Source: Deltaproteobacteria bacterium
Lineage (GTDB): Bacteria > Desulfobacterota > Binatia > UBA9968
NCBI GenBank assembly: GCA_009692615.1
Contig: SHYW01000032.1
Location: 1 to 44,931, forward strand
Length of the DNA: 44,931 bases
Direction: 5' to 3'
Below, piece by piece: positions 5,998 through 44,863 of this stretch. Under the pieces are notes generated by a model. It had not been told where the DNA came from. It did no database searches and saw nothing but the letters and a program-made list of their open reading frames with translations. The first letter of the stretch is position 1; each line of letters starts with the position of its first letter. The position numbers were made by a program, and so were the translations under genes.

Positions 5998-7750
5998 CGA
6001 CCAACGCCGGCTTGCCTGACTTCACGATATTCACAGCTTCGCGCAAAGTTTTAATCAAATCCTTCGGCTCCGTGATCGGCCCGGCGCCCCAGCAGCCGTA
6101 GGTGCGCGCCATGGCGCCGAAGTCGACGTTGGGATCCTCGATGCGGATACCGATGGTTTTATTTTCCACCGGCCGGTTGCGCACGACGGCGATCCGTTCT
6201 TGATGCTCTTCGTCGTTAAAATAGGAACGATTGCTACACACGATGCTGAGCAGGGGAATCTGATGGTGCACGGCGGTCCAGATGGAACTGACGGTGAATA
6301 ACAGATCGCCGTCGGGCTGAATGTTGACGCAAAATTTGCCCGAGCCTTTATGCGCTAAGGCCGCGCCCAGCGATGCCGGCATGCCGTAGCCCAAGCCGCC
6401 GCCTTTATATTTGCCGAGAATCTGATTGAACTTGGTCGCCGGCAAATAAAGATTCTCCTTGCCCTGGGAACTGCCGTTGGTGAGCACCCAGTCTTCGCCT
6501 TTGAGCGCCTCGGTAATTTCCGCGTAGATGCGCGTCATCGACACCGGCTTGTCGTCCCATTTCGATTGCAATTCTTTTTCCAACGCGGCCTTTTTCTCCT
6601 CGTTAATCTTGCCCCATTCGGCGTGCCGCGTGGCGATGTCGTCTTTTAAATCGGCGAGTTTGTTCTCCGCCTTGAGCCGCCGCACCAGCTCCGGCAGAAA
6701 AACCGCTGTGTCGGCGAGAATCATCAGATCGGCTTGGCGCAGTTTGTTGAAATCGGTCGCCCAAGCGCGCACCAGCAGATCGTCCAGCGCAACGTTGATC
6801 ACTTTGGCATTGGCCGCCAACAGCGGCGTGGCGCGCCGGTTGCCGCGCTCTTGCGCCCGCCGCACGGTGGCGCCTTCGAGATCGGGAACATCGAGCGCCA
6901 AGATCAAATCGGCGCGCGGAATCACTTTGTCAGCCTGTCCGGTCAGATTGAGCGGATGCTGCACGGGAAAATTAAAGCGGCCCAACTGATCGAGCACCGG
7001 CGCCGCCAACAGCTCGGCCAATTCGCCGAGCGCATTGAAGCCAGCCTCGCGCCGCCCGACCCAATCGGCGACGATCACCAGCCGCTTGGCCGCTAAAATC
7101 ATCTGAATAGTTTTTTCAAAACCTTCTTCAGGCGCCTGTAGTGGCAACGGCGCGGGATAACGCGAGACATCGAATGGAATATCGCCAGCTAATTTTTTTT
7201 CCTGCACGTCGCCGTCGTAGCAAATATAAACCGGCCCCATCGGATCGGTGGTCGCCAAACGGTAAGCGCGGATGAACGAATCCGGCACCGCCTCGACGCT
7301 CGCCGGCTGATCGTCCCACTTGCAGAAGTCGCGGACTAAATTGCCTTGCACGTTGGCGGTATGCACCCAGTCGATCCAGGGCCGGCGATTGGCGGAATCC
7401 ATCGGACCCGTGCCGCCGAGCACGATCACCGGCAACCGGTCCGCCCAGGCATTGTAGATCGCCATCGACGCATGTTGCAGCCCGACGACGTTGTGTACCG
7501 CCGCGGCCATCGGCCGGCCCTTGGCGCGCGCATAGCCATGCGCCAAAGCGACGGCGATCTCTTCATGGTTACAGAGAATGATTTCCGGCGCGTGATTGCC
7601 GCCGTAATTGACCAGCGAGTCGTGCAAGCCGCGAAAGGTCGCGCCGGGATTGATCGCGATATATTCGAACTCGAACGCCTTCAGGAGATCGACGACAACA
7701 TCCGATCCCCACTCGGCCCGAGGTTTTTCGATTTTTCTGTGTGGTGCCAT
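5975..7750 (-). CDS. Thiamine diphosphate-dependent enzyme, acetolactate synthase-like large subunit family
   Basis: A 591-residue protein with the three-domain plan of ThDP decarboxylases/carboligases. The N-terminal Pyr domain has the activating glutamate in NHEEIAVALAHGYARA (about 61-76). The C-terminal PP domain has QPDGDLLFTVSSIWTA and CSNRSYFN, corresponding to the GDG...N motif that binds Mg-diphosphate, but with DGD instead of the usual GDG. The central domain resembles that of acetolactate synthase but no small subunit gene is near. Benzoylformate decarboxylase-, oxalyl-CoA decarboxylase- or sulfopyruvate-type activity is possible; substrate unassigned. The ATG follows AAAGGAAG with good spacing. 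It overlaps the binding-protein gene downstream, and is separated from the upstream glutathione transferase by a hairpin repeat, so a promoter of its own near 7750-7800 is likely. Confidence 0.85.
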   Translation of the reverse strand: MAPHRKIEKPRAEWGSDVVVDLLKAFEFEYIAINPGATFRGLHDSLVNYGGNHAPEIILCNHEEIAVALAHGYARAKGRPMAAAVHNVVGLQHASMAIYNAWADRLPVIVLGGTGPMDSANRRPWIDWVHTANVQGNLVRDFCKWDDQPASVEAVPDSFIRAYRLATTDPMGPVYICYDGDVQEKKLAGDIPFDVSRYPAPLPLQAPEEGFEKTIQMILAAKRLVIVADWVGRREAGFNALGELAELLAAPVLDQLGRFNFPVQHPLNLTGQADKVIPRADLILALDVPDLEGATVRRAQERGNRRATPLLAANAKVINVALDDLLVRAWATDFNKLRQADLMILADTAVFLPELVRRLKAENKLADLKDDIATRHAEWGKINEEKKAALEKELQSKWDDKPVSMTRIYAEITEALKGEDWVLTNGSSQGKENLYLPATKFNQILGKYKGGGLGYGMPASLGAALAHKGSGKFCVNIQPDGDLLFTVSSIWTAVHHQIPLLSIVCSNRSYFNDEEHQERIAVVRNRPVENKTIGIRIEDPNVDFGAMARTYGCWGAGPITEPKDLIKTLREAVNIVKSGKPALVDVVCQMR

Positions 7751-7798
7751 GGCGACTTCCTTTCGAGCGAGATGTTCGAAAAACGAGCAGGTACGGAT

Positions 7799-7871
7799 TC
7801 ACCACGAAGGACACGAAGAGCATGAAGTTCGGAAATTAGATTTTCCGAAACCTTCGTGTCCCTAGTGGTGA
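7799..7871. repeat. CACGAAGGA-type hairpin repeat
   Basis: The left arm opens TTCACCACGAAGGACACGAA and the right arm closes CCTTCGTGTCCCTAGTGGTG AA, with an inner TTCGGAAA/TTTCCGAA pairing. It fills the gap between the ThDP enzyme start and the glutathione transferase stop and is the cleanest single copy in the window. Confidence 0.75.
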
Positions 7872-7900
7872 AAATATCCTCCCAGTAAACTTAATACGCC

Positions 7901-8518
7901 TCATTTTTTTGGAATCTCCATCCCCCTCTGTACCGCCGGCCGCTCGGAAATCTGGTCGAACCAGCGCTTGACGTTGGCAAACTCTTCGAGCTTGACGTTG
8001 TGGCCATCATGGCGGCCGACCCAGGGATAGGTCGCGATATCGGCGATGGAGTAGGCGCCGGTGAGATATTCGCTTTCACCCAGTTGTTTATCGAGCACCC
8101 TGTAGAGCCGCACCGCTTCTTTGTAGAAGCGCTCAATGGCCGCGGGATTTTTGTCTTCGAGACGATAAAAATAATTCGCCTGGCCTAACATCGGTCCGAC
8201 GCCGCCCATTTGAAACATCAGCCATTGAATCACCGTGTAGCGCTGGGCCAAATCCGCCGGCCAAAGCTTGCCCGCCTTTTCGGCGAGATACATAAGAATC
8301 GCGCCGGACTCGAAAAGTTTGAAGGGCTTGCCGTCCGGCCCATCGCTGTCGATGATCGCGGGAATCTTATTGTTCGGATTGATCGCCAGATATTCCGGCT
8401 TGAGCTGATCGCCCTGACCGATATTGATCGCATGCACTTCGTAGGGCATGGCGATTTCTTCGAGCATGATGGAAACCTTTTTGCCGTTAGGCGTTCCCCA
8501 AGTATAAAGTTGAATCAT
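7901..8518 (-). CDS. yfcG: Glutathione S-transferase family protein, Nu-class (YfcG-like)
   Basis: A 205-residue cytoplasmic protein with an N-terminal thioredoxin-like domain and a C-terminal helical domain. The opening MIQLYTWGTPNGKKVSIMLE, then NPNNKIPAIID (cis-proline loop) and LFESGAILMYLAEKAG match the Nu-class enzymes YfcG and YghU of E. coli, which bind two glutathiones and reduce disulfides rather than conjugate electrophiles. The length agrees with YfcG, not the longer YghU. The ATG is preceded by AAAGGAA that overlaps the end of the MFS gene, whose stop lies three bases upstream, so it is translated from the same message. Next downstream comes a hairpin repeat. Confidence 0.85.
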   Translation of the reverse strand: MIQLYTWGTPNGKKVSIMLEEIAMPYEVHAINIGQGDQLKPEYLAINPNNKIPAIIDSDGPDGKPFKLFESGAILMYLAEKAGKLWPADLAQRYTVIQWLMFQMGGVGPMLGQANYFYRLEDKNPAAIERFYKEAVRLYRVLDKQLGESEYLTGAYSIADIATYPWVGRHDGHNVKLEEFANVKRWFDQISERPAVQRGMEIPKK

Positions 8519-36582: not shown

Positions 36583-39500
36583 CTACGCCGCCAATCCAAA
36601 GTTCCCGCTCGCACTCTGTTGCCAGACGTGCTGGTATACTTGCTTGGCCATGCTCTGCTTCTCGTCGTCGGTGAAAGGCGGGCTTGGCAGTTCGAAAAAA
36701 ACGTGGTCAGAGATGAGCACTTCCACTTCCGCCTGTGTTTGCTCTTTTTCCGTCCAGCGCTCACGCTGAGCGATGAGTTTGGTCACTGCTTCCAGCAGAC
36801 TCCGGCTCGCCAGCTTCACCTTCTCTCGGTCGGCTTTGGTGAGGTTCTCTTTCTGCAACAGGCAGAACAGCGCGTATTCGTCTTCGCTCAAACCTTCCTC
36901 AGCGGCGCGCCGGTCTTCGGCGTCCAGACCGCTCATGAAGTTCACCAGCAGCGCCAACGTTTCTTCGATGGTCACGCGGTCCTTGTCGCGGTTGTAGTCG
37001 GCGATGATCTCGGAATACTTCTTGTAGAAATCCATCCGCAGCGGATTGCGCGCGAGCATCTGTTCCAGCTTCTTTTCGACTAATTGCCGGATGTCCTCCA
37101 GTGCCGACGCCTTCCGTGTCACCTTCTTGGCGAACTCATCGCGCAGCTTCTCAAGGTCGATCGTGCTCATATCGAACAGCTTCGCCTCTTTCTGATCGTC
37201 GCCCGGTGCGGCGGCACGAATGGCTTCATTGACGATCCGGTGCAACTCCTTGAGCAAGTCCGTCACGTCCGCCGTGTCGCGGCGCTCCTCCAGCTTCTTG
37301 TAAATCGCCTCGATGTTGTCGTGGCGCACCGCGTAGGTAAACGCCGGCGGCTCCATCACCAAAGCCTTGAAGCGGATGAAGACTTGCCGCGCCAGAATTT
37401 CGAACCGCCGCCGTCCTTCGTCGCGGGCATTGACAACCGCCTCTGCGCCGTCCGCGAGGGCGGCGATTTTCGTGAAGCCTTTCGCGCCCGTCAACCGGTT
37501 CGGCTCGAATCCCAGCTCGCGCAAATGTTTCTCCGTCTCTTCGATAGCCGATAGCAACGCACTTATACGCTCCTCGATGGGCGCGACGATTTCTTCCTCG
37601 CCGTCGCCGTCCTCGCCGAGAGCGTATTGCGCCAGAGCTTCGCGCAAACTCTTGAGCATTCCGTTGTAGTCCACGATGAGTCCGAAATCTTTGCCGGGGT
37701 AGACGCGATTCGCCCGTGCGATGGCCTGCATGAGCGTGTGCGCCTTCATCGGCTTGTCCACATAGAGCGTCGAGAGGCACTCCACGTCGAAGCCGGTGAG
37801 CCACATGGCGCAGACGATGGCGATACGAAATGGGTGTTCTGGATTCTTGAACGCTGTCTCCACGTCTACCCGTTTGCCGTCGGCTGTTTCAAATCCCTGT
37901 TTCATCAATAGGCGGTGCGGAATAATGTCCACGCCCCATTTCTTGAAATCAGCGACTTCGTTCTGTCCTTCGCTGATGATGATTTCGATCAGCGTTTCTG
38001 CCATCCACTTCCCCTGACCTTGGAGCCATGCCAACTCCTTCACCGCCGCGTCGCGCTGGTCTTGTTCCATTTGCGCCGCCAACTCTACTGCCTTCTGCGG
38101 AATCAACGCCTGCACCTTTGCTAGCTTCGCCTGCCAGCGCGGGATGATGCGCTGATACATCCGCCCGCAGGTGATCTTATCAATGCACACCAGCATGGAC
38201 TTGCCGGATTCCCAGCGCGTCGCACAGTGCTCGACGAAATCGGTGGCGAGCTTGTCCAGCCGGTCGTCGGCGGTGATAACTTCGTAATCCTGCCCAAGCA
38301 ATTTCTCCAGCAACGCTTCCTTGTCCGAGTCAAGTTCGGCCTTCTCGATGGCGTCGGCGATGCGGTCGTTAAGGTCGAGCCGAGCTATTCCCAACTTCTC
38401 GCCGCGATTTTCGTAAACGAGTTTCACTGTCGCGCCATCTTCTTCGGAGCGTTTGAAGTCGTAACGAGAAACGTAACTGCCGAAGATGCGCTTGGTTAGA
38501 TTATCGTGCTTGAACAACGGCGTGCCGGTGAAGCCGATGAACGCCGCGTTGGGCAGCGCCAGCCGCATGTTGCGGGCGAGCTTGCCGGCCTGGGTGCGGT
38601 GCGCTTCGTCCGAAATCACGATGATGTCGTCTCGCGTGCTGTAAGGTTCTCGCGGGTTCACGTCCTGATTGAACTTGTGAATTAGGCTAAAAATGTAGCG
38701 ATGGTTTTGTTTGAGCAGCCGTTTCAGATCCTCACCAGTTGCGGCGCGTGGCGTCTTTTCGTTGGCGACTCCCGCGCCGACGTACGTGCGATAAATCTGG
38801 CTGTCCAGGTCGTTGCGGTCAGTCATCAACAGGAAAGTGAACTTTGCGGAGATTTCCCGCCGCACCTTCTCCGTGAAGAACGCCATCGAATACGACTTGC
38901 CACTGCCCTGCGTATGCCAGAACACACCCAGCTTGCCGAGGTCGGGATGCGCAGACTCGACCACATTGAGCATGCGCATAGACTCCTGCTCCTCGGGAGA
39001 TTGGACTGCCACATCCGAAGAATGACTCTGATCGCCGGGAACCGATTCTGCCGCGAGCAAAACTGGCAGCTCGACGACGCGATAGGTGAGGCGCTTCTCA
39101 GGCGGGAACTGCCGCTTCAATTCCTCCTGCCACTGCACCGACTCCACCGCATTGTTGACGCCGAGCACCTGATGATTGCGGGCGAGAACTTTTCGCGTCG
39201 CGCCAGGTTTGCTGTCATCGAACAGGATGAAATTCTCTACCAGGTCGAGCAACCGATCGTGCGCAAGCATCCCGTTGAGCAGCCGCTCCGCGTCCACGCT
39301 GCCTTTGCGGTCGTCCTCGTCCAGCCTTTTCCACTCGGCGAAATGTTCCCATCCGCTGGTGATCGAGCCGTAGCGGGCGCGATGGCCGTTGCTGACGATG
39401 AGCAAGGCGTTGTGATGAAACGCATGGGCGATGACGTGTTCGTCCATGTAGTCGCGTAGGTTGCCGTCGAAGCCGGCGCGGATATTTTTGTAGACCGCTT

Positions 39501-40029
39501 TCAACTCGATGAACACCAGCGGCAGCCCGTTGACGAAGCAGACGAGGTCCGCGCGGCGGTTATAGCCCGGCGTGCGCAGGCCGGTGAGCTTCAACTCACG
39601 CACAGCGAGAAATCGATTGTTAGGTTTGCCGTCCGCGCCCAGCCCGTTTTTGAAATCAATCACCCGCGCCCGGATCTCGCGCAGCCGGCCTTGCGCGTCC
39701 TTGTAGCTCACCGGCACGCCGTCGCGGATGAACTTGTAAAATTCCTGATTGTGCTGAAGCAGCGAGCGAGAGAAATCATGCCGCGTCATCGCCTGCACCG
39801 CCTCGGTGATGGCGGTGGGCGGCAACTGCGGATTCAGCCGGAAGAGCGCCGCGCGCAGGTCGTGCGTGAGCACCGCTTCCTTGGTATCGGCCCGCCCCAG
39901 CGTGCCGTCCGGCCCGAACGTCTCATCGTTCCAAGCATATACACTCTCCCAGCCGAGCACCGTTTGCAGATGATCAGCGAAGGTCTTTTGGACGAGCCGG
40001 TCTTCGCTGTTGATGTCGGTGAAAGCCAT
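36583..40029 (-). CDS. hsdR: Type I restriction enzyme, R subunit (HsdR)
   Basis: A full-length motor-nuclease subunit of 1148 residues. The nuclease site is D161 (RRADLVCF) with E175-x-K177 (VFIELKA). The translocase has Walker A QGSGKS (374-379, in WHTQGSGKSYSM), DEAH (474-477, ISDEAHRTQ), GFTGTPLF and TGFDVECLSTLYVDKPMKAH, ending QAIARANRVYPGK. The helical C-terminal part that docks HsdM is present. A polar segment before Walker A (about 325-355) looks like an insert. The ATG lies three bases after the end of the reading frame of the upstream nuclease-like gene, so expression depends on the same message. Reading frame intact; it uses TAG as its stop. Confidence 0.95.
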   Translation of the reverse strand: MAFTDINSEDRLVQKTFADHLQTVLGWESVYAWNDETFGPDGTLGRADTKEAVLTHDLRAALFRLNPQLPPTAITEAVQAMTRHDFSRSLLQHNQEFYKFIRDGVPVSYKDAQGRLREIRARVIDFKNGLGADGKPNNRFLAVRELKLTGLRTPGYNRRADLVCFVNGLPLVFIELKAVYKNIRAGFDGNLRDYMDEHVIAHAFHHNALLIVSNGHRARYGSITSGWEHFAEWKRLDEDDRKGSVDAERLLNGMLAHDRLLDLVENFILFDDSKPGATRKVLARNHQVLGVNNAVESVQWQEELKRQFPPEKRLTYRVVELPVLLAAESVPGDQSHSSDVAVQSPEEQESMRMLNVVESAHPDLGKLGVFWHTQGSGKSYSMAFFTEKVRREISAKFTFLLMTDRNDLDSQIYRTYVGAGVANEKTPRAATGEDLKRLLKQNHRYIFSLIHKFNQDVNPREPYSTRDDIIVISDEAHRTQAGKLARNMRLALPNAAFIGFTGTPLFKHDNLTKRIFGSYVSRYDFKRSEEDGATVKLVYENRGEKLGIARLDLNDRIADAIEKAELDSDKEALLEKLLGQDYEVITADDRLDKLATDFVEHCATRWESGKSMLVCIDKITCGRMYQRIIPRWQAKLAKVQALIPQKAVELAAQMEQDQRDAAVKELAWLQGQGKWMAETLIEIIISEGQNEVADFKKWGVDIIPHRLLMKQGFETADGKRVDVETAFKNPEHPFRIAIVCAMWLTGFDVECLSTLYVDKPMKAHTLMQAIARANRVYPGKDFGLIVDYNGMLKSLREALAQYALGEDGDGEEEIVAPIEERISALLSAIEETEKHLRELGFEPNRLTGAKGFTKIAALADGAEAVVNARDEGRRRFEILARQVFIRFKALVMEPPAFTYAVRHDNIEAIYKKLEERRDTADVTDLLKELHRIVNEAIRAAAPGDDQKEAKLFDMSTIDLEKLRDEFAKKVTRKASALEDIRQLVEKKLEQMLARNPLRMDFYKKYSEIIADYNRDKDRVTIEETLALLVNFMSGLDAEDRRAAEEGLSEDEYALFCLLQKENLTKADREKVKLASRSLLEAVTKLIAQRERWTEKEQTQAEVEVLISDHVFFELPSPPFTDDEKQSMAKQVYQHVWQQSASGNFGLAA

Positions 40030-40032
40030 GAT

Positions 40033-40623
40033 TCAGCGCGTGGTTTTAATTTTGGTGATTTTCATTTCTTCCTTCAATCGGTTACGGGCTGCGGAAGTGA
40101 ACCGTTCTCCATCCATTGTGAATTGCCCGTACCCGACGAGTAAAATGCGCTCGAAGGTGGACGCCTGTCCGAAACCGGACTCAAGACATTGCTTGTAGAG
40201 TTTCCTCCCGGCCTCGAAGTTGTCCGGCTCGCCATGGGAATGTGGGTAGTTCTTCGGCAGGAACTACAGTGCTAAATCCGCGCCGTGCTGGAAGTAGGTG
40301 TGGAACTTCAACAGGTCGCGCAGTATTTTCTCCCAATTCGCCTTCTCTACCTCCACCACGACTTGTTTGTCGCCAAACGAGAAAGCGAAGTCGTATTTCT
40401 GTTTGATATGCGGCGGCAGCTTGAATTCCGCTTGAATTGTTCCTTGTGCGAGCAGTCTGGCCTCAAGCCGTGGATCAAAATCGTAGGTAAGTTGGTGGCT
40501 GTTTCGTGCGCCCACCGTCACGGGGAACCGCACCTCGTTCAAACCGGCAATCAATGGCCCAAGCAGCCGATCGGCAGGCGAGCCAATTGGAAAACATTCA
40601 AAGTTGCACGCGATGAGTTCCAT
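40033..40623 (-). pseudogene. Small PD-(D/E)XK (BglII-like) nuclease gene interrupted by an in-frame amber codon
   Basis: The ATG at 40623 comes one base after the hsdS stop. 119 codons follow, then TAG at 40264-40266, then 76 further sense codons in the same frame (FLPKNYPHSHGEPDNFEAGR ...) to TGA at 40033-40035, three bases before hsdR. So an intact ancestor of about 196 residues filled the slot exactly. The first part has D78, E91-V-E93-K94 and KILRDLLKFHTYFQHG, the pattern of restriction-endonuclease-like folds such as BglII. TAG ends other genes here (hsdR, HNH, the amidohydrolase, the 12-TM MFS), so it is a normal stop. No restart codon follows the TAG closely. A nonsense mutation, a base error, or suppression could explain it. 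As it stands, a 119-residue product with the putative active site is made. Confidence 0.65.
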
Positions 40624-40624
40624 A

Positions 40625-41851
40625 TCACACCGCAATCTCCCCACTCATGAGCCGCGGCAGCAGCAGGTCGCGCGCGGCGCGGAGTTTTTGGTTCTGGAAA
40701 CAGAGGTTACGCAGTTGGTCGGTAATCGCCGTGGCCGTTTCAGTGAAGGTTGTCAGCAATCCCTTCGGCGGCAGAGCCACGGGAAACTTCGTCATCAGCT
40801 TCCAGTCAGCACGCGGCATCTTTGAACCTTCGCGCATGGTCTGAGAAGCCTCCGCGACAAACTTGTCGCTGGAAACCGTCGTCAGTACAAAGCTCCGTAG
40901 CTCATCCGTGGACGGGCGAATCACAATCGCGTCGGACGACGCAACGCCATCGGTGAACGCGATGCCGACTTTATGGAAGTATGGCCGAATCTTGCCGAAC
41001 AGAATGTCGCCGGTCTTGAAACGGTGCTTGGTGCTGGTGACGGCTTCGGCTTGTCCCCATTCCGTCAAGGAGATCGAACGGCGCGGCATGTGTTCAAGAC
41101 CGATGTAAGGCGTGTCCGGTTCGAGTTCTTCCGGCAATACGGTTTCGCGAATGTCCGAGCATATGTCACCGAGAGTTTCTTGTTCCCAGCCTTCCGGGAT
41201 GCCGTTGGTAAGGCGGATGTGTTCGTGGCCCGGGAAGCGGAGGCGGACGAACCACTCCCGGTAAAGCAGCCGTGCCGCCTCCTCCAACAACCCCATCCGC
41301 CGCCGGTTGTTCTCCAGCATCTCGTCGTAGCTGGAAAGGGTCGCGACAATTTCGCGCTGTGTGTTGAGCGGCGGCAGCGGCAACTCGAACTCACGAAGAA
41401 TTCCGAGATTGATGTGCGGAACGCCTGAAGTAATCGCCCGGTTCTTGATGGACTGCACAGTTCGCGGGTGGCGGAAAAAATAGAAAACGAACCGTGCATC
41501 AGCTTTAGCCGGGTCAACGGTAAGTTTCATTTGACTCTGAGATACCAAGTATCTTGGAAATCTTGGTTCGGTCGGAATGAGTCCCACCTGTCCCAAAGTT
41601 CCGCGCTGGGTAAAAATGACATCTCCGGGATGAGCGTTGTTGGCTATGAGGGCATCAGCTTTTTCATCTCGCACGAACACAAAATCGTCGTCCTTGAATG
41701 AGCAGTCGTCGGGAAGGTTTGCACCTCGGATGACAGGCACGCCTTCATCCACGTAGTCGCGTGTCGTCAAATCAGAGCCGAATGGTCCACCAACAAGCGA
41801 ATGTCGAGTCGTGGCGCGGATTCCCTCAATGGTCACTTGTGGCCACTTCAT
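40625..41851 (-). CDS. hsdS: Type I restriction enzyme, specificity subunit (HsdS)
   Basis: A 408-residue DNA-recognition subunit with two target-recognition domains. The first runs from the N-terminus to about 150 and leads into the conserved helix region FELPLPPLNTQREIVATLSS YDEMLENNRRR (about 154-185); the second runs from about 215 to 365 (GWEQETLGDICSDI, FKTGDILFGKIRPYFHKV), followed by the C-terminal conserved helix ending LLPRLMSGEIAV. Both halves are full length, so two half-site specificities are expected; the DNA sequence recognised cannot be read. Its ATG overlaps the stop of the 35-codon hsdM-tail copy (ATGA) and its TGA is one base before the ATG of the nuclease-like gene. Confidence 0.93.
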   Translation of the reverse strand: MKWPQVTIEGIRATTRHSLVGGPFGSDLTTRDYVDEGVPVIRGANLPDDCSFKDDDFVFVRDEKADALIANNAHPGDVIFTQRGTLGQVGLIPTEPRFPRYLVSQSQMKLTVDPAKADARFVFYFFRHPRTVQSIKNRAITSGVPHINLGILREFELPLPPLNTQREIVATLSSYDEMLENNRRRMGLLEEAARLLYREWFVRLRFPGHEHIRLTNGIPEGWEQETLGDICSDIRETVLPEELEPDTPYIGLEHMPRRSISLTEWGQAEAVTSTKHRFKTGDILFGKIRPYFHKVGIAFTDGVASSDAIVIRPSTDELRSFVLTTVSSDKFVAEASQTMREGSKMPRADWKLMTKFPVALPPKGLLTTFTETATAITDQLRNLCFQNQKLRAARDLLLPRLMSGEIAV

Positions 41852-41940
41852 ATTCCCAACCCCTCAAAGTTTTCCTGAATCTGCTTCGCCAGCGCGACGG
41901 CTTCCTGATTCAAGTCGGCCAGCTCAACGTGGATGTCGCT
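41848..41940. repeat. Imperfect direct repeat, copy 1 (pairs with 42968-43060)
   Basis: Aligned by hand without gaps, about 75 of 93 bases agree with 42968-43060. Both copies end in TCAT, where a stop and the next gene's ATG overlap. The divergence is mostly at third codon positions, so the copies are old or were acquired from different relatives, not made by a recent duplication. Confidence 0.75.
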
Positions 41941-41955
41941 CCGGGTAGGTTTCAC
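41848..41955 (-). pseudogene. 35-codon duplicate of the hsdM 3' tail between DUF1016 gene and hsdS
   Basis: Reads from GTG 41955 (GTGA overlap with the DUF1016 gene stop) to a TGA overlapping the hsdS ATG. Residues SDIHVELADLNQEAVALAKQ then IQENFEGLGI match the last 30 residues of HsdM (GDIHVELADLNKEAATLAKT, IQENFDGLGI) in 24 of 30 places. It is therefore a left-over end of an hsdM gene that once abutted hsdS. Because both ends overlap neighbours, it may still be translated and couple the DUF1016 gene to hsdS. Confidence 0.75.
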
Positions 41956-42971
41956 GGCGCGGCTTCCAGCAGTTTGATGATTTGCTCGGGCGAGGGCAGT
42001 TGTCCTTTCAGATTCCCGGGCAGCCGTTTGACGGTGCGATAGGTGGCCACGCCGATGGGTTTGCGGGCGTCGTGCAGGGCATACTCGACAATGGTGCGGC
42101 GCTTTTCCTTGCAGAGAATGATGCCGATGGAAGCGTGCTCGCCCTTGAGTCGGACCTGGGCATCCAGCGCGGCGAGGTAAAACTGCATCTTGCCGACAAA
42201 CTCCGGCTCGAACGCGCCAATCTTCAAGTCCAGGGCCACGAGGCATTTCAGGTGGCGATGGAACAGGAGGAGGTCAATGAAGTATTCCTGAGCGTCCACC
42301 TCCAGCCGGAACTGGCTGCCAACGAAAGCGAACCGCCCGCCCATCGCGCGCAGGAAATCTTCGATGCGGGCAATGAGGGCGCGCTCCAGTTCGCGCTCGC
42401 TGTGCTGGTCACCGAGTTCGAGGAAGTCAAAGGTGTATTCGTCCTTCACGGCGAGTTTGGCCTGGGCGCGCAGCGCCGGGGTGAGGGCGCGGTCGAAATT
42501 CGTCTGGCCGAGGAGGGTTTTCTCATAGCTCTGGTTTTCGATCTGGTGGATGAGCACGGCCTTGGTCCAGCCGAACTTGGCGGTCATCCGCAGGTAGAAT
42601 TCGCGTTCGAGCAGGTCTTTGCAGCGGGCCATGATGACGATGTTCTTGGCCCAACTGATTTCTCCAACCAATGGTTGGAGTCTTTCGGAGGCGTGGTAGG
42701 CCAGGTAGAACTGGCGCATATACCACACGTTCTGAACGGAGAAACCCTTGATGCCGGGAAACTCCGCTTGCAGGTCGGCGGCGAGTTTTTCAACGACGGA
42801 TTTTCCCCACGAACCGCCGGCCTGGCGCTGGGAAATCAAGCGGCCAATATCCCAATACAGCCCCACCAGTTCCTTGTTGACCGCCCGCAGCGCGTCATAC
42901 TGGGCGGCGAGGACACGTGCTTTCACCTCGGCCAACAGCGCGGCGTAATCGGTGGGCAATAGCTTGCTCAT
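41952..42971 (-). CDS. DUF1016/YhcG-type PD-(D/E)XK nuclease domain protein
   Basis: A 339-residue protein of the YhcG (DUF1016) family. The N-terminal half holds the DUF1016 N domain (LRAVNKELVGLYWDIGRLIS, about 28-47; GFSVQNVWYMRQFYLAY, about 76-92; ISWAKNIVIMARCKD). The C-terminal half is a PD-(D/E)XK-like domain with QEYFIDLLLFHRHLKCLVAL DLKIGAFEPEFVGKMQFYL (about 225-264), D and D-x-K being the likely metal/catalytic residues. The family is often found in or near type I restriction systems and is thought to cut or process DNA, but its job there is not settled. Its ATG overlaps the hsdM stop (ATGA) and its TGA overlaps the GTG of the hsdM-tail copy, so it is built into the operon. Confidence 0.9.
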   Translation of the reverse strand: MSKLLPTDYAALLAEVKARVLAAQYDALRAVNKELVGLYWDIGRLISQRQAGGSWGKSVVEKLAADLQAEFPGIKGFSVQNVWYMRQFYLAYHASERLQPLVGEISWAKNIVIMARCKDLLEREFYLRMTAKFGWTKAVLIHQIENQSYEKTLLGQTNFDRALTPALRAQAKLAVKDEYTFDFLELGDQHSERELERALIARIEDFLRAMGGRFAFVGSQFRLEVDAQEYFIDLLLFHRHLKCLVALDLKIGAFEPEFVGKMQFYLAALDAQVRLKGEHASIGIILCKEKRRTIVEYALHDARKPIGVATYRTVKRLPGNLKGQLPSPEQIIKLLEAAP

Positions 42972-43060
42972 ATTCCAAGCCCATCGAAGTTTTCTTGAAT
43001 CGTTTTCGCCAAAGTGGCGGCTTCCTTGTTCAAGTCAGCCAGTTCAACATGGATGTCGCC
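42968..43060. repeat. Imperfect direct repeat, copy 2 (hsdM 3' end; pairs with 41848-41940)
   Basis: The genuine 3' end of hsdM. The DUF1016 gene lies exactly between this copy and copy 1, as expected if it came in together with, or by recombination at, an hsdM 3' end. Confidence 0.75.
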
Positions 43061-44863
43061 CAGGGTTTGCTCGAAATCGAAATCCTCATCCACCTCCGGC
43101 GGGGCAACGCCCACGTAGCGACCCGGCGTGAGACTCCAGTCGGCGGATTCAATTTCCTTTCGGTCCACCAGCTTCACCAGTCCGGGCACATCCACTAGTT
43201 TCGCGTCAGGAAAGCGCGAGAGCAGCCAGTGCGCCTGCCGCTCGAAGTAGGCGGCGGCCTTGAGTTGTTCCACCGTCTCCCTGCGCCGCGCGTCCAGTTC
43301 CTTCTCCAGCCTGCCAATGGCGCGACCGTCCCAGGCTTCGTGCTCCTTCGCGTTGGCGTCCTTCTCCGTTGCGTCCACGACCCGCGCCGCGAGTTTGAAA
43401 ACCAGGTCAACGTCTTTGACTAAGTCGCGGCATGCGGTGGCGAGTTCGTCCAAATCGGCGAGCAGTTTCTTCTGCGCGGACAGTTTCGAGTCGCACGACT
43501 TCTTCCAATCCTTGGCGATACGCGCCGTCCATTTGTCCAGCGCCGCGAAACAGGACTTCGCCGCGTCGTCGCGCTCTTTCACGAATTCGCGCAACGGCGA
43601 GTCTTTGGGCAGCGTTTTTAGGAACGGCACAGTGGCATTCACCAGTGCCTCGTAACTCTGGCGGAACGCGGTGGCTTTGTCCGCGATGGCGGAGGCTTCT
43701 GTCAACGTGCGTTCCAAATGTTGTTGGACGAGCGCGATGAAACGCTCGGATTGCCCGCGATACAGCCAGACTATGGAGGTGAGGTTGGCCAACTGTTCCG
43801 GCGAGAAATCGTAAATCTTGCGTGTGACCTTCCGATAAATGTTCCGCGCGTCAATCATCAACACCTTATCGCGACCCTCTGCGGGCTTGCCCTTGTCGAA
43901 GTGCCACAACTCGCACGGCACGGTGCGGGTATAGAAGAAGTTGGAGCGGATGGAAATCATCACGTCCACCGCACCCGTCTCGACAATTTTGCGGCGGACT
44001 TCGGCCTCACCATGCCCGGCGCTGCTGGCCTGCGACGACATGACAAATCCGGCGCGGCCAGTCTTATTCAGATAGCTCCAGAAGTAGGAAATCCACAGGT
44101 AATTGCCGTTGGAGACTTTCTTCTCCTTGTTCACACCCGGCAGACCGAACGGCAACCGGCGGTCGTCTTTCACCTTCTCGGCGTCCACCTTGTCCACGTT
44201 GAACGGCGGATTGGCCATGACGAAGTCGCACTTGCCGAACAGTTCGTGCGGGTCTTCGTAAAACGTGTTGGCCTCGACGATGTCGCCCTCCAACGCATGG
44301 ACGGCGAGATTCATTTTCGCGAGGCGCAGGTTGCTGGTCTTGGCTTCCTGGCCGAAGAAGGTCGCCCGGTGCGTCGCGCTTTGGCCGCGTTGCTCGATAA
44401 AGTAGCTGGACTGAACGAACATACCGCCCGAGCCGCAGGCGGGATCGAACACCGTACCGTGGTCTGGCTCGATGACGTTGACGATGGTCTGAACCAGCGA
44501 AGGCGGGGTGAAGAACTCGCCGTTGTCCTGGGCACCCTGCATGGCGAACTTCATCAGGAAGTATTCGTTGATGCGCCCGAACACATCGCCGCTGGCGGTG
44601 CGCAGCGTCTCGCTGTCGAAAACGCGGAGCAGGTCTTCGAGCAGGGAGTTCTCGAACTTGGTGTATTCCTTGGGGAGTTGATTGAGCAGCGGCTCGAAGT
44701 CGCGCTCGATGGCGTCCATCGCCTTGACGAGTGCGTCACCCAGATTCGCTCCTTTTGGCAACGCTATCAACGTATCGTAGCGGGCTTGTTGTAGCAAAGT
44801 GATTATGTCAGGGGTTAACGGCAACGTAATTATGTCAGGGTGGAAGGATGACAACCCTGACAA
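42968..44863 (-). CDS. hsdM: Type I restriction enzyme, methylation subunit (HsdM), 5' end replaced by an insertion sequence
   Basis: An N6-adenine methyltransferase subunit. SAM motif I is DPACGSGGMF (140-149) and catalytic motif IV NPPF (218-221), counted over the open frame; EFFTPPSLVQTIVNVIEPDH and a long helical C-terminal part (about 430-560) follow. Family similarity begins only at ARYDTLIALPKG (about residue 27). Intact relatives have roughly 90-100 further residues before this point, forming the N-terminal helical domain that holds the subunits together. The residues ahead of ARYD (HPDIITLPLTPDIITLLQQ) are read from the end of the insertion sequence, and the frame opens with TTG, so this is not the native start; the first ATG inside is at 44719. 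Expression and activity are doubtful, though the catalytic core is intact. Confidence 0.85.
   Translation of the reverse strand: MSGLSSFHPDIITLPLTPDIITLLQQARYDTLIALPKGANLGDALVKAMDAIERDFEPLLNQLPKEYTKFENSLLEDLLRVFDSETLRTASGDVFGRINEYFLMKFAMQGAQDNGEFFTPPSLVQTIVNVIEPDHGTVFDPACGSGGMFVQSSYFIEQRGQSATHRATFFGQEAKTSNLRLAKMNLAVHALEGDIVEANTFYEDPHELFGKCDFVMANPPFNVDKVDAEKVKDDRRLPFGLPGVNKEKKVSNGNYLWISYFWSYLNKTGRAGFVMSSQASSAGHGEAEVRRKIVETGAVDVMISIRSNFFYTRTVPCELWHFDKGKPAEGRDKVLMIDARNIYRKVTRKIYDFSPEQLANLTSIVWLYRGQSERFIALVQQHLERTLTEASAIADKATAFRQSYEALVNATVPFLKTLPKDSPLREFVKERDDAAKSCFAALDKWTARIAKDWKKSCDSKLSAQKKLLADLDELATACRDLVKDVDLVFKLAARVVDATEKDANAKEHEAWDGRAIGRLEKELDARRRETVEQLKAAAYFERQAHWLLSRFPDAKLVDVPGLVKLVDRKEIESADWSLTPGRYVGVAPPEVDEDFDFEQTLGDIHVELADLNKEAATLAKTIQENFDGLGI

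Follow-up and report, generated by a model that had tools for sequence, protein, structure and literature searches.

Does the in-frame amber codon in the small gene between hsdS and hsdR mark a gene that is really broken, and what would the loss of such a gene tell us about its role? In the window, by which we mean the whole stretch of 44,931 nucleotides that was analysed, hsdM, hsdS and hsdR of a type I system lie in one operon, in the order hsdM, yhcG (DUF1016), hsdS, nuclease, hsdR (Table 1). The gene in question, an accessory gene for a predicted nuclease, is on the minus strand and runs from an ATG at 40623 to a stop ending at 40033, with a single internal stop. The end of hsdS (40625) lies one base ahead of this ATG, and the start of hsdR (40029) lies three bases past the final nuclease stop. 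In the mechanical list of open reading frames, the first piece of the gene is opened by an upstream GTG (40644), which gives 126 aa; considering the spacing and the homologues, the ATG at 40623 is the likelier start. The original prediction, that an in-frame amber codon splits a gene fitted between hsdS and hsdR, was confirmed in both coordinates and spacing.

Table 1 Features of the type I operon and of its edge in the window
Feature	Position	Strand	Remarks
hsdR	36583..40029	-	1148 aa, open
Accessory nuclease gene with premature stop	40033..40623	-	196 codons and final stop
Nuclease tail behind the stop	40036..40263	-	76 codons; 8/8 residues invariant in six intact homologues kept
In-frame TAG, codon 120	40264..40266 (read 40266-40264)	-	V, V, V, L, L, L in six intact homologues
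N-terminal piece of nuclease gene	40267..40623	-	119 codons; D78, E91, E93, K94 motif
hsdS	40625..41851	-	408 aa, open
Second copy of hsdM 3' end	41848..41946	-	99 bp, immediately ahead of hsdS; identity to 42968-43066, 81%
yhcG (DUF1016/PDDEXK)	41952..42971	-	Between hsdM and hsdS
hsdM, 3' part only	42968..44786	-	Homology resumes at about residue 89-90 of L056 hsdM; no HsdM_N match
16-bp target duplication	44771..44786		Also beside the other insertion-sequence end, C57:146-161
High-copy insertion-sequence end at contig edge	44787..44931		Short open frame near 44848, + strand

The frame behind the TAG is open for 76 codons, as had been predicted. From local composition alone, the chance probability of such a run is about 0.034; openness by itself is weak evidence for one gene, and the matter is decided by homology. 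G120 has two relatives of the nuclease, L003 (also designated L006) and L004, and further relatives were found at L005 (a Limisphaerales MAG), L007 (an Opitutae MAG), L008 (a Verrucomicrobia MAG), L056 (G912) and L057 (G886). Six of these genes are intact and one (L057) is broken; none of the homologue counts includes G075, where the match is weak and partial. When the L007 and L005 proteins were used in tblastn, they aligned straight past the TAG, with 45% identity (E 3.5e-43) and 43% identity (E 1e-45), respectively. The original prediction had left two points to an alignment of homologues, namely whether they end naturally at this position and which residue stands in place of the stop. No natural end was seen at this position in the six intact homologues, which have valine or leucine in that column. 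Of the residues that are invariant in these six, the window keeps 10/10 before the stop and 8/8 after it; the L008 row of the seven-row alignment lacks its first 12 residues, so that the first columns cannot score as invariant. Because the homologues run past the stop column and the tail keeps the invariant residues, a premature stop is the right reading. Using residues conserved in at least five of the six homologues, the window retains 27/31 in the head and 15/20 in the tail. Decay of the tail was considered for this difference and rejected, since divergent intact homologues lose conserved residues too; for example, L056, which is intact and divergent, retains only 8/13 of the tail residues conserved in the rest.

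The part of the protein that the stop removes can be judged from an AlphaFold2 model, which is that of the intact L007 homologue (mean pLDDT 90) and not of the window protein. The model matches BglII with a Z-score of 12.0 over 170 of 200 residues (rmsd 4.7), followed by BstYI (10.9), BamHI (10.2) and OkrAI (9.5). Foldseek placed OkrAI at the top (E 5.8e-4), then BglII (1.2e-3), BamHI (5.4e-3) and BstYI (1.1e-2). Only one of these matches reaches E 0.001 or lower, and the TM-scores are modest (0.37-0.47 for BglII). The model thus predicts a BglII/BamHI-like fold over most of the nuclease, and its matches to BglII, BstYI and BamHI support the earlier description of the gene as nuclease-like. 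D78, E91, E93 and K94 are invariant in 7/7 alignment rows, which is consistent with a D...E-x-E active site; they may be the counterparts of BamHI D94/E111/E113. We infer nuclease activity in the intact relatives, and sequence-specific DNA cleavage is a putative function of the family. The position of the TAG corresponds to L007 residue 125, inside strand 122-128, and strands 131-138 and 165-174 together with two long helices lie behind it. As modelled, the stop interrupts a strand of the core, with a loss of about two fifths of the predicted protein.

With the BglII / BstYI / BamHI / OkrAI group of PD-(D/E)XK endonucleases, the nuclease family shares the predicted fold of its intact L007 member and an invariant D...E-x-E-K motif. 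However, the nuclease has no significant sequence match to this group, and it sits inside a type I operon with no methyltransferase of its own seen; in the window, L056 and L057, only hsdM was read beside it. These genes form a small family of predicted BglII-fold nucleases tied to type I restriction-modification operons. Scans of three whole members against Pfam (P0001, L003 and L004) and of four members against NCBIfam (P0001, L007, L056 and L004) gave no significant match. Below the thresholds, Pfam gave BglII at E 0.23 for the first nuclease piece, with no BglII match for the whole protein, and an unrelated family at E 0.084 for L003, and NCBIfam gave one match to an unrelated family at E 0.12. 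A PADLOC scan of P0001 gave no match, and the sequences of solved structures gave two chance matches only (E about 0.5).

The original prediction called the lesion either a very recent nonsense mutation or a base error. A premature nonsense codon that is fairly recent agrees with our results, "very recent" goes beyond proof, and a base error is the less likely alternative. Neutral change was simulated from the present tail with 1500 runs per rate, using substitutions only and no indels. At 0.05, 0.10 and 0.15 substitutions per site, 31%, 9.2% and 3.5% of the runs, respectively, gave a tail that had no further stop and kept all eight invariant residues. The stop is fairly recent in the sense that it is young relative to the divergence of the family, and its age is poorly bounded because no relative closer than about 42-45% identity to the window protein was found. 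With a single protein as query, 2/297 genomes of the phylum were positive, which are the window's own and G120. An alignment search for a closer relative found only the window's own genome among 97 relatives' genomes, and likewise only this genome among 148 of the class; in the phylum, 3/395 genomes were positive, comprising the window's own, G120 and the weak partial match in G075. Other alignment searches gave 1/29 (G120 itself), 3/384 in the class of G530 and 2/320 in the order of G527. When genome contigs were scanned, the single nuclease sequence returned no relatives and the nuclease alignment returned four loci. No relatives were found in plasmids or phages by tblastn, or in viral contigs by one scan. 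The weak match in G075 (L010, G075:C17:21511-21762) reaches E 3.6e-4 against the nuclease profile and lies within a 306-aa open frame.

By itself, the stop codon in the nuclease gene looks like an ordinary pseudogene event. It had been argued that the loss of this gene, if real, is informative about its role as hsdR and hsdS stay intact; hsdM was not mentioned, and this argument fails there, since hsdM is cut by an insertion sequence and frame-shifted. The window lacks the start of hsdM; this N-terminal part is found at the start of contig C57, against an insertion-sequence end, so that hsdM is divided between contigs C32 and C57, with the same 16 bp on both flanks. The insertion-sequence ends are TGTCGTGGCAACG and TGTTGTAGCAAAG. 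This arrangement, read from the ends on two contigs, is as expected for one insertion with a long target duplication in hsdM. In its N-terminal part, hsdM moreover departs from the L056 frame between codons 31 and 32. An HsdM_N domain is present in the L056 and L057 hsdM and gave no match in the window hsdM frame; an intact HsdM with its N-terminal domain is therefore missing from this type I system. The final 145 bases of the window occur at no fewer than 40 places of the genome with 99-100% identity (40 scored of 165 first-look candidates), and each of the 40 listed places extends to a contig end or stops a few bases short of it. This high-copy insertion sequence explains many of the contig breaks of the window genome. 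The open frame near 44848 on the plus strand is possibly the start of its transposase.

The inserted element has several features of the IS1202 group. According to PMC10132070, the group has TGT outer ends and imperfect inverted repeats, and part of it makes long target duplications (16-28 bp in the long subgroup); the window element likewise has these features, with a duplication of 16 bp. Most of its transposase gene lies beyond the contig edge, and the likeness is one of ends and duplication only.

Since hsdM is insertion-cut and frame-shifted besides the stop in the nuclease gene, we call the operon decaying, and the TAG adds to one or two further lesions there. With a probability of about 0.75, we read the locus as a decaying type I operon with an insertion sequence in a frame-shifted hsdM and with a nuclease gene that is a fairly recent amber pseudogene, the product of which cannot complete its fold. 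According to this reading, a high-copy insertion sequence would have landed in hsdM, which would also have changed frame near codon 31, leaving the first 89 or so residues cut off from the catalytic part. The accessory nuclease of predicted BglII/BamHI fold would have gained an amber stop, by which the later portion of the core fold is lost. The expected product would then be a 119-residue fragment unable to complete the nuclease fold, as in a fairly recent pseudogene. We infer that nuclease activity is lost here and that the restriction system as a whole has lost its function, and the order of these events is our reconstruction. HsdR, HsdM and HsdS are jointly required for restriction, as stated in PMC11411939. 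The window hsdR is 67% identical to that of L056 over residues 1-1145 and 88% identical to that of L005 over residues 1-854, where the L005 gene is cut. Because hsdR and hsdS are both fully open, these two genes may still be under selection; otherwise the decay must be young. The case shows that a single lost gene should be interpreted only after the whole operon has been read, also across contig edges.

Against this reading, either the TAG or the frame change in hsdM, or both, could stem from a base error or from a variant present in a minority. If the TAG were a consensus base error or a variant of a minority strain, the real nuclease gene would be intact. A single base change would be enough for this, the tail has no clear sign of decay, and the genome (estimated 98.7% complete) is assembled in 186 contigs; nevertheless, the ten further large ORFs of the window that were scanned all match some Pfam family above the cut-off, and the hsdM insertion with its target duplication in the same operon cannot be a base error. 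We therefore regard such an error at the TAG as unlikely, while giving it real weight. Much less credit is due to programmed readthrough or amber suppression, by which the full-length nuclease would be made as a rare product. A tail that is open and conserved would suit it, but a stop stands in that column in none of the six intact homologues, and of the 34 mechanical ORFs in the window that do not overlap and have 150 aa or more, TAG terminates 7, hsdR included, as an ordinary terminator should and as had been predicted. No UAG-reading tRNA (CTA anticodon) was found among the 37 tRNA genes of the window's genome (E up to 0.001). These 37 include no tRNA-Ile, so that the tRNA set is incomplete, and the test, which the original prediction had called for, is strong but not absolute evidence against UAG suppression. 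The original view of suppression as remote is upheld by the tRNA genes and the six homologues together, and we consider it highly improbable. That no tRNA-Ile gene is among the 37 found in this genome (G000) despite its estimated completeness of 98.7% is a separate observation; such a gene was probably lost together with collapsed repeats such as rRNA operons.

It is hardly credible, either, that the 119-residue piece functions as a short protein, for instance as an inhibitor or as half of a split nuclease. The piece keeps the motif of D78, E91, E93 and K94, but core strands of the predicted fold lie behind the stop, and 0/6 intact homologues end there. A second half is unlikely to be made, as the earliest ATG, GTG or TTG in the frame of the tail is its 50th codon and a restart would therefore give at most about 27 residues. 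A further proposal concerns the cause of the loss within a decaying operon, namely that loss of the nuclease was selected since it became toxic after hsdM failed. The breakage of both hsdM and the nuclease in one operon would fit, but two other loci point the other way. In L008, an intact nuclease persists beside a 226-aa hsdM frame with HsdM_N and the C-terminal end, in which no match to the N6_Mtase domain was found, and in L057 the nuclease was lost while hsdM is open. L008 speaks against simple toxicity unless its nuclease is not expressed or a second hsdM is present. No hsdR was found in the 9 kb of L008; its contig ends about 0.1 kb past the last scar, and hsdR could lie beyond. Since L008 keeps its nuclease with an hsdM that has no catalytic domain, the toxicity suggested originally is unsupported, and we rate selection for loss as improbable.

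For the other suggestion made originally, a dispensable gene, L057 offers better support than the window. The ATG of the L057 (G886) nuclease overlaps the stop of hsdS. Over 60-63 residues the gene matches the family; it then passes into repeats and runs into a gene for a REP-associated tyrosine transposase (L057 3226-4622), for which NCBIfam gave E 2.9e-18 and 66 bits, under the curated cut-off of 80, and Pfam gave no match. The later part of the nuclease was not found in this contig. The hsdM, hsdS and hsdR of L057 are open with the expected domains, and the locus is an independent loss of the nuclease gene; the destruction of this copy beside three open hsd genes is the best evidence that the nuclease is dispensable.

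Accessory genes in hsd operons are known from other systems. TgvAB in V. cholerae VPI-2, as described in PMC11411939, are accessory defence genes within an hsd operon, as in the window; they are GmrSD-like type IV and not of BglII fold, and here the accessory gene and hsdM are broken. The PrrC nuclease gene is linked to a type I system, as here, but PrrC and RloC are anticodon nucleases of ABC type that act on tRNA, according to the abstract of PMC2610378. In the nuclease proteins scanned, unlike ABC-type PrrC and RloC, no ATPase match was found. When the literature was searched for a BglII-fold accessory of type I operons, no such title was among the matches listed.

The nuclease adjoins hsd genes in 6/8 loci (the window, L005, L007, L008, L056 and L057), and around the two G120 copies no hsd genes were read in 5.8 and 9 kb. 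Besides the nuclease, these operons carry HNH, Schlafen-AlbA, OLD-like, FRG and Nmad3 genes, and also PLD-like genes just under the Pfam cut-off. In L056, two accessory genes (6493-8064; 193 and 322 aa), which have no Pfam match at E up to 0.01, lie between hsdS and the nuclease. Between the window and L005, hsdR is 88% identical over 854 residues whereas the nucleases are only 42% identical; the core and accessory genes therefore have separate histories. The loci as a group provide evidence that gain and loss of accessory genes proceed independently of the core hsd genes, and the nuclease looks like a dispensable, exchangeable accessory. Tentatively, we suggest that it belongs to an exchangeable set of defence genes that may enter by recombination between operons and leave scars, with the cargo lost or replaced while the core hsd genes persist; the amber copy would then be a discarded one.

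Possible scars of this kind occur at several gene borders. In the window, yhcG is flanked by two copies of the hsdM end (99 bp, 81%), both of which finish in an ATGA where the following gene (yhcG or hsdS) already begins; in PADLOC, the second copy weakly matches the end of a type I methylase (E 0.02). In L007/L059, the nuclease is flanked by two copies of the hsdS end (49 bp, 92%; L059 1353-1401). In L005, short stretches at the borders of accessory genes (7230-7334 and 537-620) join the hsdR start to the hsdS end, and a weaker fusion of the same two parts is seen in L008 (8800-8953). Self-comparison of L056 gave no repeats, and in L057 it gave one inverted pair of 25 bp and otherwise only repeats of the inserted element; hsd ends were repeated in neither. 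Repeated hsd gene ends were also found in 0/7 plasmid operons, the scan covering seven of eight regions and leaving out that of Haliscomenobacter, where no hsdS is listed near hsdR. The repeats at gene borders suggest a route of exchange, as a lead and not as a rule. Further genes stand between hsdS and hsdR in 6/8 plasmid type I regions, none stands there in one, and one lists no hsdS. In L079, one 22-bp repeat (E 0.022) lies within two genes, away from the gene ends.
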